Shown: positions 13,814 to 17,114 of the stretch, in pieces
Layout of the letters: every line of letters begins with the position of its first letter
Position numbering within the stretch: the stretch's first letter is position 1
Assembly (NCBI RefSeq): GCF_000730165.1
Contig: NZ_CP022112.1
Location: forward strand, 1,404,001 to 1,468,000
Origin: Nitrospirillum viridazoti CBAmc
Lineage (GTDB): Bacteria > Pseudomonadota > Alphaproteobacteria > Azospirillales > Azospirillaceae
DNA: 64,000 nt
Direction: 5' to 3'
The notes under the pieces: generated by a model
Seen by the model: the letters and a program-made list of their open reading frames with translations, nothing else
What the model was told of the DNA's origin: nothing
Database searches by the model: none
Position numbers and translations under genes: made by a program

Positions 13814-14275
13814 ATGACCCGCCTGTTGACAGCCCTGATCCTGGGCTGCTTGGCATGGGCCGCCGCCATCGCGCCGGCCCGCGCCGCCACCGCCAGGAAC
13901 ACCATCGGCCTGAAGGCCGCCGTCGTCACCGCCTGCACCGTGGATGTCACCGACCTGGGCGTCGCCCTGGATGTGGTGGGCGGGGAGACCAAGCGCCAGG
14001 TAGGCAGCGTGGTTGAAAACTGCAACGATGCCAAGGGCTACACCATCACGGTCAACTCCGCCAACAATGGCAAGCTGCAGTCGGGAAAGAACACGGTCAC
14101 CTTCACCACCCTCTATGACGGCACCAGCGGCAACGGCAGCGGCAGCGTCTCGGTCACCCGGTCCAAGGCCACCTTCGCCAAGACGGCCGCCCTGGCCGTG
14201 ACCATCGCCGGCAACGCCAAGACCATCGCCGGCCACTACACCGACACCCTGACGGTGACCATCAAGGCGAAGTAA
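13814..14275 (+). CDS. Secreted spore-coat-U-like (SCPU/CsuA-type) protein
   Basis: 153 residues with a clear Sec signal peptide (about residues 1-25, cleavage after ARA). The mature part is a small Thr/Ser/Gly-rich beta-sandwich with two cysteines (ACTVDVTD and VENCNDAKGY) likely to form a disulfide, ending AGHYTDTLTVTIKAK. This is the C-terminal strand pattern of the spore coat U / Csu pilin family. No chaperone or usher genes are next to it, so a pilus role is not supported here. ATG 13814 has GAGGA 7 nt upstream. It lies directly upstream of the CreBC-like operon on the same strand. Confidence 0.65.
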   Translation: MTRLLTALILGCLAWAAAIAPARAATARNTIGLKAAVVTACTVDVTDLGVALDVVGGETKRQVGSVVENCNDAKGYTITVNSANNGKLQSGKNTVTFTTLYDGTSGNGSGSVSVTRSKATFAKTAALAVTIAGNAKTIAGHYTDTLTVTIKAK

Positions 14276-14297: not shown

Positions 14298-14319
14298 TCT
14301 GCACAAAATCTGCACAAAA
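14298..14319 (+). promoter_or_regulatory. 11-bp tandem direct repeat resembling a CreB tag
   Basis: TCTGCACAAAA occurs twice head to tail (14298-14308, 14309-14319). The core reads TGCAC-N6-TGCAC, the same layout as the E. coli CreB binding site TTCAC-N6-TTCAC with one change per half. A third TGCAC lies at 14355, exactly 44 bp (four periods) after the second. OmpR-family regulators bind direct repeats of this 11-bp period. The repeat lies 63 bp upstream of the first gene of the response-regulator operon, so autoregulation is likely. Confidence 0.55.
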
Positions 14320-14381
14320 GACGCTGAATATCTGCTGACCGGCGCCCGCAGGGCTGCACGGTCGCGTCGCATAACGGCGGC

Positions 14382-14543
14382 ATGACATCCGCCGGAACCC
14401 CACCCCTGACTCCCACGCCTGTCCCCCTGCCGCCGTGCGTCCTGCGCGACGGATGGTGGCTGGCGGCGAACCCGCGCCCGGGTTCCTGGGGCCCGACGGC
14501 CGTCATCCTGCCCTTCAAGACCAGGAAGACCCCGGCCCCATGA
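14382..14543 (+). CDS. Small gene (53 aa), first of four 4-bp-overlapping genes
   Basis: Open frame of 53 codons whose ATGA end overlaps the start of the next small gene. The product is Pro/Thr-rich at the N-terminus (PLTPTPVPLPPC) and then contains LRDGWWLAANPRPGSWGP. It has no recognised domain, signal or membrane segment. The case for its being real is the unbroken series of 4-bp overlaps down to the kinase gene and its position just after the repeat at 14298-14319. No clear ribosome site was seen. No function is assigned. Confidence 0.45.
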   Translation: MTSAGTPPLTPTPVPLPPCVLRDGWWLAANPRPGSWGPTAVILPFKTRKTPAP

Positions 14544-14782
14544 CCGACACCATCCCCGTCACGACCGCCGGTGCTGCGCCTGGCGGCGACGCCCCCGGCT
14601 TGCCTGTCGCCGGCTTGGCGACGCTGGCGAGCCATTTGTTTCATGACGCGCCGCTGGGCATTGCCCCGCCGGTCTTCCTGACCCGCCACGCCGATTGGCG
14701 CAGCTGGACCGTACGCGATCAGGGCTTGCGGGACTATCTGGCCGCCCATCCAGATGGTATCGATCAGACGAGCCAACCATGA
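14540..14782 (+). CDS. Small gene (80 aa) translationally coupled to response regulator
   Basis: ATG 14540 lies inside the stop of the preceding 53-codon gene (ATGA), and its own stop overlaps the response-regulator start (ATGA, 14779-14782). The N-terminal 25 residues are Ala/Gly/Pro/Thr-rich; the C-terminal half (SHLFHDAPLGIAPPVFLTRH, then DWRSWTVRDQGLRDYLAAHP) looks folded. No known family recognised. Because both ends overlap neighbours by 4 bp it is probably translated with the two-component system and could modulate it. That role is inference only. Confidence 0.55.
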   Translation: MTDTIPVTTAGAAPGGDAPGLPVAGLATLASHLFHDAPLGIAPPVFLTRHADWRSWTVRDQGLRDYLAAHPDGIDQTSQP

Positions 14783-15519
14783 TGGGCATCATGCACCGCA
14801 TCCTTGTCGTCGATGACGATCCCCACATCCGTGACGTCCTATGCTTCGCCCTGGAGAAGGCGGGCATGGCGGCGGAGTGGGCGGGCAACGGCGTGGACGC
14901 CCTGGACTTGGCCACCCGCAACCCGCCCAGCCTGGTGGTGCTGGACGTGGGCATGCCGGAGATGGACGGGCTGGAGGTCTGCCGCCGCCTGCGGCGCGCC
15001 TCCGACGTGCCCATCCTGTTCCTGTCCGCCCGGGATGAGGAGATCGACCGCGTGCTGGGGCTGGAGATGGGCGGCGACGATTACGTCACCAAGCCGTTCA
15101 GCCCGCGTGAACTGGTGGCCCGCGTCAATGTCATCCTGCGTCGCGCCCGGGGCGCGACCGTGGTGGCAACGCCGCAGGAGGACGCCCCGCCCCTGACGCC
15201 CTGCCCCATAGTCAGGGGCGCCCTGATGCTGGACAGCGCCGGCCACCGGGCCACTATGGCCGGCCGTGAGCTCGGCCTGACGGCCCGCGAATTCATGATC
15301 GTGAAGACCCTGGCCGGCCGGCCGGCGGTGGTGTTCAGCCGCAACCAGCTGATGGACGCGGCCTATCCCGACAACATCCACGTCTCCGACCGCACCATCG
15401 ACAGCCATGTGCGCAACATCCGCGCCAAGTTCCAGGCGGCGGGCTGCGAGGACGCGGTGGAGACGGTGCACGGGGTGGGCTTCCGCCTGGGCCCCTGCAC
15501 CACGGGCACGGCGCCGTGA
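14779..15519 (+). CDS. OmpR-family response regulator, CreB-like
   Basis: 246 residues from ATG 14779, which overlaps the upstream small gene; ATG codons at 14782 and 14791 are alternatives. Receiver domain residues 6-120 with acidic pocket DDD at 12-14, phospho-acceptor Asp56 (VVLDVGMPEMDG) and the conserved Lys in GDDYVTKPFSPREL. A C-terminal winged helix (about 150-240) has YPDNIHVSDRTIDSHVRNIRAKF. The stretch ILFLSARDEEIDRVLGLEMG is close to E. coli CreB. It overlaps the kinase gene by GTGA. It probably binds the direct repeat at 14298-14319. Confidence 0.9.
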   Translation: MMGIMHRILVVDDDPHIRDVLCFALEKAGMAAEWAGNGVDALDLATRNPPSLVVLDVGMPEMDGLEVCRRLRRASDVPILFLSARDEEIDRVLGLEMGGDDYVTKPFSPRELVARVNVILRRARGATVVATPQEDAPPLTPCPIVRGALMLDSAGHRATMAGRELGLTAREFMIVKTLAGRPAVVFSRNQLMDAAYPDNIHVSDRTIDSHVRNIRAKFQAAGCEDAVETVHGVGFRLGPCTTGTAP

Positions 15520-17114
15520 CACCCCTGCGCGTCCGCGCCAAATGGCGCCCATCGCTGGGCATGATCGTGGTGGCGGTGCTGCTGGCGGTCGCGGCATTGC
15601 CCCTGGCCGGCCTGTTCTTCTTCCGCCTTTATGAGAACCAGCTGGTCCGTCAGACGGAGGCGGAGCTGATCGCCCAGGCCAGCGTGCTGGCCGCCGCCTA
15701 CGCCGACGCGGTGGAGCGGCTGGACCCACCGCCGGCCCTGTCGCCCACCCCCCTCACATCCCTGACACCAGAGGAGCGCTTCCACCCCATCGAGCCGGCG
15801 CTGGACCTGACCAGTGATGATGTGCTGGGCGCCCGGCCGGCGGCCGTGCCGGCCACCGCCGCCGTGGACCCGGCCCTGCAGGCCATCGGCGCCCAAATCT
15901 ACGCCATCGCCTGGCGGGCGCAGGACCAGACGTTGGCCGGCGTGCGCGTGCTGGATTTCAACGGCACCATCCTGGCCGGGGCGGAGGAGGTAGGCCTGTC
16001 CCTGGCCGGCGTGCCGGAGGTGGCGGGCGCCCTGGCCGGCCAATACCACGCGGCCCTGCGCGTCCGCCGGTCGCAGCATGAACCGCCGCCGCTCTATTCC
16101 ATCAGCCGGGGGACGGGGGTGCGGGTGTTCGTGGCCCTGCCCGTCATCGCCCATACCCAAGACGGCGACCGGGTGGCCGGCGTCATCTACGCCTCGCGCA
16201 CACCCAACAACATCTTCCGCCACCTGTATGGAGAACGGCGCAAGGTGGCCCTGGCCGGCGGCTGCATTCTGGCCGTCATCCTGATCATCGCCTTCGTTTT
16301 TTCCCGCACCATCACCCGCCCCATCCACCAACTGGTGCGCCAGACGCGGGAACTGGGCACCCGCGGCCTGGATGAGGGGCCGGCCGACGCGCCACACTAC
16401 GGCACCCGGGAAATCGCCCTGCTGTCGCAAAGCTTCCACGACATGGCGCAGCGCCTGTCCGACCGATCGCGCTACATCACCACCTTCGCCGCCCATGTCA
16501 GCCACGAGCTGAAGTCGCCCCTGACTGGCATCCAGGGAGCGGCGGAGCTGCTGCACGACGATTTGGAGGGGGAAGAGGCCATGGATGCCAGCCAGCGCCG
16601 GCGCTTCCTGGGCAACATCCTGGCCGACACCCGCCGCCTGACGGCCCTGGTGCAGCGGCTGCGCGACCTGGCCCAGGCGGACAACCCGGTGCGCGGTGGT
16701 CGCACCAGCCTGGCCGCCGTCTGGCCCGAGTTGGCGGCCCAGTTCCCCCGCCTGGCGCTGACCGTCAGCGGTGAGGACGCCGCCGTCGCCATGTCGGCGG
16801 AGAACGTGATGATCCTGTTCGGCCACCTGGCGGACAACGCCGGCCGCCACGGCGCTACCGCGCTGGACATCGCCGTGGCCTTCCGCGACTGGGCGGTGGT
16901 GGTCACCGTGGCCGACAACGGCCACGGCATCTCCCCCGCCAACCGCGACCGGGTGTTCGACGCCTTCTTCACCACCCGGCGGGACAGCGGCGGCACCGGC
17001 ATGGGCCTGCACATCGTGCAGTCGCTGCTGCGCTCGCACGGTGGCGACATCCGCCTGGGCGATGCGCCGGAAAGTGGCGGGGCGGTGTTTGAGGTGACCC
17101 TGCCCCGGGCCTGA
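15516..17114 (+). CDS. Membrane sensor histidine kinase, CreC-like
   Basis: 532 residues, GTG start overlapping the regulator stop. TM1 about residues 16-38, a periplasmic sensor of about 210 residues with a Cache-like end (VRVFVALPVIAHT, then DRVAGVIYASRTPNN), TM2 about 248-268, HAMP about 270-320. The H-box SHELKSPLTGIQGAAELL has phospho-accepting His330. The ATPase domain follows with N-box LADNAGRHG, G1 VADNGHGIS and G2 GTGMGLHIV. It autophosphorylates and passes phosphate to Asp56 of the preceding regulator. The ligand is unknown. E. coli CreC is similar in the H-box region; the sensor domain is much longer here. Confidence 0.9.
   Translation: MTPLRVRAKWRPSLGMIVVAVLLAVAALPLAGLFFFRLYENQLVRQTEAELIAQASVLAAAYADAVERLDPPPALSPTPLTSLTPEERFHPIEPALDLTSDDVLGARPAAVPATAAVDPALQAIGAQIYAIAWRAQDQTLAGVRVLDFNGTILAGAEEVGLSLAGVPEVAGALAGQYHAALRVRRSQHEPPPLYSISRGTGVRVFVALPVIAHTQDGDRVAGVIYASRTPNNIFRHLYGERRKVALAGGCILAVILIIAFVFSRTITRPIHQLVRQTRELGTRGLDEGPADAPHYGTREIALLSQSFHDMAQRLSDRSRYITTFAAHVSHELKSPLTGIQGAAELLHDDLEGEEAMDASQRRRFLGNILADTRRLTALVQRLRDLAQADNPVRGGRTSLAAVWPELAAQFPRLALTVSGEDAAVAMSAENVMILFGHLADNAGRHGATALDIAVAFRDWAVVVTVADNGHGISPANRDRVFDAFFTTRRDSGGTGMGLHIVQSLLRSHGGDIRLGDAPESGGAVFEVTLPRA

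Follow-up and report, generated by a model that had tools for sequence, protein, structure and literature searches.

What are two very short open reading frames doing directly in front of a two-component system? The question is raised by a 64,000-nucleotide stretch of the Nitrospirillum viridazoti CBAmc genome (positions 1,404,001 to 1,468,000 of contig NZ_CP022112.1; hereafter the window), where four frames on the plus strand follow each other. They are a frame for 53 amino acids (aa), called sm1 (14382–14543), an 80-codon frame, called sm2 (14540–14782), a response regulator of 246 aa (14779–15519), and a histidine kinase of 532 aa (15516–17114). An earlier note on this DNA described the frames as chained by ATGA, ATGA, and GTGA overlaps, and re-reading of the frames and overlaps confirmed this. 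Its headline was that both small frames are micro-genes; this is right for sm1 and wrong for sm2. It is quite probable, judging from related genomes, that an operon conserved in Alphaproteobacteria is present in the window in degraded form. In this operon, a micro-gene with a DGWW motif, encoding the head of a membrane protein, is followed by the genes for the DUF4153 membrane protein, an OmpR-type regulator, and a HAMP kinase.

The 80-codon frame and the DUF4153 gene

The window genome (G000) was compared with six Nitrospirillum congeners from a 40-genome search of relatives (G001 to G006) and with two relatives from another genus (G010 and G083). Residues 1–47 and 46–80 of sm2 match the start and the end of one continuous gene in G003, G006, and G005, where the intact gene has 514, 504, and 521 codons, respectively. 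Thus, sm2 consists of the first ~47 and the last ~35 codons of the full gene, and ~1.3 kb has been deleted in frame. The full protein of G003 belongs to DUF4153 (PF13687; E 1.4e-61, 209.2 bits, cut-off 27), and that of G005 matches the same model with 196.2 bits. The 80-aa protein does not match any Pfam family; its two ends fall outside residues 79–451 of the G003 protein, which are covered by the model. In G003, TTCCTG is found at both break points, and a single copy remains at the deletion junction in the window (14675–14680, plus strand). This fits slippage between short repeats. On these alignments, sm2 is an internal-deletion remnant of a DUF4153 membrane-protein gene of ~514 codons, not a gene for a small protein tuning the system, as the earlier note had proposed.

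The deletion junction is identical in G000 and G002, and it is likely that a single event is common to both. G004 has a different deletion, which is out of frame and leaves 17 codons; comparison with the relatives places GCGCGAC at both of its ends. In G001, the DUF4153 gene is broken over two contig ends. No full DUF4153 gene of this type is present elsewhere in the G000 or G002 genome, and the G004 genome has no DUF4153 match at E <= 1e-5. A remote relative of DUF4153 is located elsewhere in the window genome (L036, G000:C1:1767482-1768252; 31.8 bits); it is not the lost gene. Within Nitrospirillum, DUF4153 diverges much faster than the regulator and the kinase. The identity of DUF4153 to the G003 protein is 67% in G006 and 57% in G005, and the regulator and the kinase are ~77–97% identical to those of the window.

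Loss of DUF4153 with retention of the micro-gene, the upstream repeat described below, and the regulator is observed in G000/G002, G004, and G355. G432, from the same genus as G355, has the full operon. The kinase is also kept in these lineages, with a broken frame in G002 and, in G355, a fetched stretch that covers only part of it. Since the junctions or the lineages differ, the three losses are apparently independent.

The 53-aa micro-gene

The conservation of sm1 was investigated by a profile search of genome contigs, with a six-row DUF4153 alignment as the query. From 198 loci, 80 were kept. They are mostly from Mesorhizobium, and also from Bosea, Bradyrhizobium, Microvirga, Methylosinus, Methylobacterium, Devosia, Rhizobium, and others. 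The micro-gene was recognized by the motif PxxLxx[DE][GSAD]WWL directly before DUF4153 or at its N-terminus (script pattern [DE][GSAD]WW[LF]). It was found in 75 of the 80 loci: 74 by script, including the two fused loci L051 and L097, and L092 by eye. Among the exceptions, L081 has a micro-gene broken by an internal stop, and L067 has no upstream DNA. The consensus is LPxRLxxDGWWL, and the motif in the window is LPPCVLRDGWWL.

The first motif set comprised 75 sequences selected by [DE]GWW[LF], 68 from the scan loci and seven others. Pro at position -6, which was not used in the selection, is invariant in all 75 and is encoded by four codons (25/24/16/10). In the ungapped core of 81 sequences, the ratio of nonsynonymous to synonymous differences per site (pN/pS) is 0.54 in frame, and the other two reading frames give 1.27 and 1.30. 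The stop of the micro-gene reads ATGA in 53/74 scan loci, and the start codon of DUF4153 lies exactly on this stop in 59/71. By its conservation, the 53-aa frame is a real micro-gene. The view of the earlier note that this frame is a gene chained to the next is therefore supported by its presence in 75/80 loci, the stop-start overlap, and pN/pS. The conservation check that the note had proposed for both small frames gives a conserved micro-gene for sm1 and, for sm2, the ends of DUF4153 in congeners.

No Pfam or NCBIfam model matches the 53-aa product. A profile of the micro-gene detected all seven Nitrospirillum genomes and G083 in an 82-genome sample of the family (E <= 2.3e-9), together with three weak matches elsewhere (E 0.002–0.004). 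In plasmid records, the Rhizobium form was found in 99. Among the 40 plasmid matches listed, some annotate "hypothetical protein" under the micro-gene, and others only DUF4173 or no gene, in a gene table that is incomplete. Rhizobium records label members of this DUF4153/DUF4173 family "DUF4173 domain-containing protein".

In L051 and L097, no stop codon separates the small frame from DUF4153. The same arrangement is usual in a second family, in which 34 of 295 genomes have DUF4153 and the best 30 loci were examined. There, DUF4153 itself has RGVPxxLxxDxWWL at its N-terminus, ahead of its first helix, in 26/30 loci, and the motif and DUF4153 are in one continuous frame in 25/30. That DUF4153 carries the motif within its own sequence in this second family indicates that sm1 corresponds to a split-off head of this protein. 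It is best read as a separately encoded N-terminal segment of the DUF4153 membrane protein. The gene proposed by the earlier note thus stands; the independence of its 53-aa product is revised to a segment encoded apart here and fused elsewhere. Broken copies of the operon are also observed: L141, in the second family, has an in-frame TAG in DUF4153, L081 has the interrupted micro-gene mentioned above, and L023, a plasmid of Neorhizobium galegae, has a broken DUF4173 frame.

The upstream repeat and the regulator

Upstream of sm1, TCTGCACAAAA is present twice in tandem at 14298–14319 on the plus strand, giving TGCAC-N6-TGCAC. As the earlier note had reported, this 11-bp (base pair) tandem repeat is perfect; it is also the sole one in the window. 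TGCAC starts at 14300, 14311, and 14355, and the first begins 82 bp before the start codon of sm1. The pattern TGCAC-N6-TGCAC alone is not significant, being present in 35/100 shuffles of the window. The scan of the 7.4-Mb genome that the note had suggested yielded three exact matches versus three for a reversed control pattern. There is no enrichment in this count; one extra match, however, lies at a conserved membrane-protein gene, described below. Another, L001, sits inside an open frame.

The repeat is conserved among relatives. It is present in the five congeners aligned with the window, with the first half reading TGCAT in G006, and in the sixth, G001 (L070). In the other genus, it is intact in G083, and its second half is degenerate in G010. 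Among the micro-gene loci of the scan, 65/74 have an exact TGCA-N7-TGCA within 200 bp upstream, where 0.011 is expected per region. In 58 of these 65, the repeat is 80–82 bp before the micro-gene start, and in three from Rhizobium it is at 38 bp. Six of the nine non-exact loci have one mismatch at 80–81 bp, and L051 has one mismatch at 110 bp; the upstream regions of L053 and L088 have no convincing repeat. In the second family, the repeat is exact in 20/30 loci and has at most one mismatch in 26/30, versus 0/117 control stretches. In a class-wide sample, where DUF4153 was found in 9/385 genomes and which is less biased, the repeat is exact in 7/8 loci with the regulator and has one mismatch in the eighth. 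The repeat is likewise missing from L072, L088, and L107, the scan loci whose fetched sequence shows no regulator. The importance that the earlier note gave to the repeat is thus borne out by a cis-element conserved across many genera.

The third TGCAC (14355–14359) begins 55 bp, or five times 11, after the first. It is kept in 5/6 aligned Nitrospirillum sequences. Its 11-bp phase, also pointed out in the note, is true of the window and is lost in G010, where the distance is 43 bp instead of 44. In the scan loci, mostly from Mesorhizobium, a weaker third half-site TGCGGAAAAC is observed ~21 bp after the first TGCA, suggesting binding to three sites.

The regulator contains a receiver domain (Response_reg, PF00072; 4.4e-30) and a winged-helix domain (Trans_reg_C, PF00486; 1.2e-17), the domain combination of the OmpR/PhoB type. 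It is located downstream of DUF4153 in 76/80 scan loci (75 recognized by script and L046 by reading the same output), in 30/30 loci of the second family, and in 8/9 of the class sample. From the association of regulator and repeat, together with the biology of OmpR/PhoB-type regulators, we infer that the regulator binds the repeat. The repeat is most likely the operator of the neighboring regulator, and its conservation strongly suggests that the operon is autoregulated through it.

The second site in the genome is at L002:1501-1516 (G000:C3:99948-99963). This exact repeat, followed by a weaker third half-site at +11, is 109 bp before a gene for a 192-aa membrane protein (L002:829-1407, minus strand), whose family is unassigned. 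The gene is found in 6/7 Nitrospirillum genomes. Five upstream regions were compared (G000, G002, G003, G004, and G006), as the sequence of G001 stops at a contig edge. The repeat is exact in G000, G002, and G004 and has one mismatch in G003, at 108–112 bp before the start of the match; in G006, it has two mismatches and is at 94 bp. Since the sequence of the upstream neighbor differs in G002 and G003, this conservation is not mere synteny. The 192-aa membrane-protein gene may be a second target of the regulator, which would then control membrane proteins in both cases. A weaker paralogue adjoins the gene (G000:C3:98702-99229).

The kinase has HAMP, HisKA, and HATPase_c domains and is present in all six congeners, in two pieces in G002 and G005. 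The frame breaks near residue 290, in the linker between HAMP and HisKA (L019:8598-8608 in G002; L020:6496-6519 in G005). Different small indels cause the two breaks, through either decay or assembly error. A similar regulator-kinase pair is observed in G015 (L022:5492-7893), a genome in which no DUF4153 was found. It adjoins frames named, from reading, as an exosortase-like membrane protein and a von-Willebrand-type protein.

In the operon proposed here, the regulator would bind TGCAC-N6-TGCAC as a head-to-tail dimer and control, besides the operon that encodes it, one or more other membrane-protein genes. Translation would be coupled from the head micro-gene through to the kinase, so that synthesis of the head peptide immediately precedes that of DUF4153, on whose cytoplasmic side the peptide may dock. 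By analogy with CreD, which stands beside CreBC, DUF4153 may be the partner of the kinase or the main output. In the window strain, the overlapping frames would still bring ribosomes to the regulator and the kinase, with the membrane protein gone.

Related systems and alternative explanations

The earlier note called the two-component system CreBC-like. The best NCBIfam models are indeed CreB for the regulator and CreC for the kinase. However, the scores of 240.4 and 160 bits are below the equivalog cut-offs of 273 and 356, and a search of G000 for CreD (PF06123) at E <= 0.001 was negative, with a positive E. coli control. The CreB tag of E. coli is TTCAC-N6-TTCAC. Both systems share an OmpR-type regulator and a HAMP kinase, an adjoining gene for a polytopic membrane protein, and a direct repeat with a 6-bp spacer. 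They differ in the membrane protein, which is DUF4153 (PF13687), encoded upstream of the pair, instead of CreD, in the half-site, which is TGCAC, and in the extra DGWW micro-gene or N-terminal segment. The pho box is also an 11-bp direct repeat. PhoB ranks third among the NCBIfam models of the regulator, and the repeat in the window likewise has an A-rich spacer, whereas its half-site is TGCAC and the regulator, with 195 bits, falls short of the PhoB cut-off of 296.2. CreBC, with the inner-membrane protein CreD, is known in E. coli, Pseudomonas, and Stenotrophomonas. According to the abstract of one study, creD is expressed more strongly on activation of CreBC in E. coli, Aeromonas, and P. aeruginosa, and is repressed by CreBC in Stenotrophomonas (PMC4689548).

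The order DUF4173, regulator, kinase is seen on plasmid p5 of Rhizobium sp. NLR16a; it is the same as here, except that the window retains only two ends of the membrane protein. DUF4153 and DUF4173 are described in PMC4822843 as unrelated to Cache sensors. Literature searches, including for DUF4153 and DUF4173, found no description of this operon.

Several findings weigh against the reading of the window as a degraded copy of such an operon, with sm1 as the head of DUF4153. The micro-gene is absent from three of the scan loci (L072, L107, and L108). Of the nine DUF4153 loci in the class sample, two carry the motif as part of DUF4153, two have it in a frame of its own, and five lack it; it is thus common and not universal. 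The WW element is also absent in G010. The predicted model of sm1 alone has low confidence (predicted local distance difference test, pLDDT, 68; predicted template modeling score, pTM, 0.22), and the DGWW segment is below pLDDT 50 in the model of a natural fusion. Three lineages that lost DUF4153 still have sm1, which is the strongest indication that the head peptide may also function without DUF4153. Between G000 and G002, sm2 shows six nonsynonymous and seven synonymous changes (one-sided binomial, 0.03), a weak hint that some constraint persists, perhaps to keep the frame open. The grouping of G000 with G002 has a bootstrap value of only 53, and the shared deletion is therefore likely and not proven. 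Finally, L053 has the regulator and no convincing repeat, and L108 has the regulator and the kinase with neither micro-gene nor repeat.

Some of these findings bear on other explanations. It is unlikely that each of the two small proteins works on its own as a modulator that tunes the kinase or the regulator directly. Such a role would fit the survival of sm1 through the losses of DUF4153, its three nonsynonymous and six synonymous changes between G000 and G002 (p 0.02), and the substitution pattern of sm2, which is open in both genomes. However, sm2 is composed of two membrane-protein ends, has Pro where six aligned relatives share an invariant Leu (L52), contains His residues in its first helix, and is out of frame in its G004 counterpart; as for sm1, other lineages carry it as part of DUF4153, and L088 retains it with no regulator in the stretch that was fetched. 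It is very improbable that sm1 is a cis-acting leader peptide or upstream open reading frame (uORF) of the attenuator or CruR type, whose translation sets downstream expression. In its favor, the 75 micro-genes, which were selected by that motif, and seven near-variants have Trp codons in tandem, and the micro-gene comes first in the operon at a near-fixed distance from the repeat; CruR/DUF2946 uORFs are likewise small first genes with a conserved short motif (PMC9426467). Yet the conservation of sm1 is at the protein level, and the motif is the N-terminus of the membrane protein in the 25 continuous frames of the second family. The stop overlaps the next start at the offset shared by 59/71 loci, leaving no intergenic region for an attenuator. 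PMC9426467 describes long intergenic regions after CruR-type uORFs, incompatible with coupling; no such spacer follows sm1, whose motif is also found fused to the next protein.

Whether the repeat belongs to another OmpR/PhoB-type regulator, or is a general promoter element, was also considered. Sites of this type with 11-bp spacing are common, binding by the neighboring regulator is deduced from sequence, and L053 and L108 are exceptions to the association. Nevertheless, the repeat tracks the regulator in the scan and class loci, is missing from the fetched stretches without a regulator, and has only three exact copies in the 7.4-Mb genome, which make this alternative improbable.

The conserved operon remains the preferred explanation. 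A further and rather doubtful possibility is that DUF4153 represents a new class of membrane signaling proteins with the DGWW peptide as its detachable gate. The gate would be fused to DUF4153 in some bacteria, come in trans from an overlapping micro-gene in others, and act on the kinase alone after DUF4153 is lost, as the three lineages suggest. If so, a module of ~20 residues would move between cis and trans within one sensory system.

The locus is ordinary as a degraded copy and interesting as an entry to the conserved operon. The comparison would define a signaling operon, widely conserved in Alphaproteobacteria and apparently undescribed, with its own operator-like repeat around the function-unassigned DUF4153/DUF4173, and adds a small-gene family frequently missed by public annotation. 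Two origins of micro-genes are found side by side: the splitting of a head from a membrane protein, and an in-frame deletion that spared the translational chain. A neat row of overlapping small frames is therefore no proof of a functional product from each.

Just upstream of the repeat, on the same strand, a spore-coat-U-like protein is encoded at 13814–14275 (SCPU, 21.0 bits, cut-off 22.4). It has no full-length match in the fetched stretch of G005, and full-length matches are present in those of G003, G002, G004, and G006.

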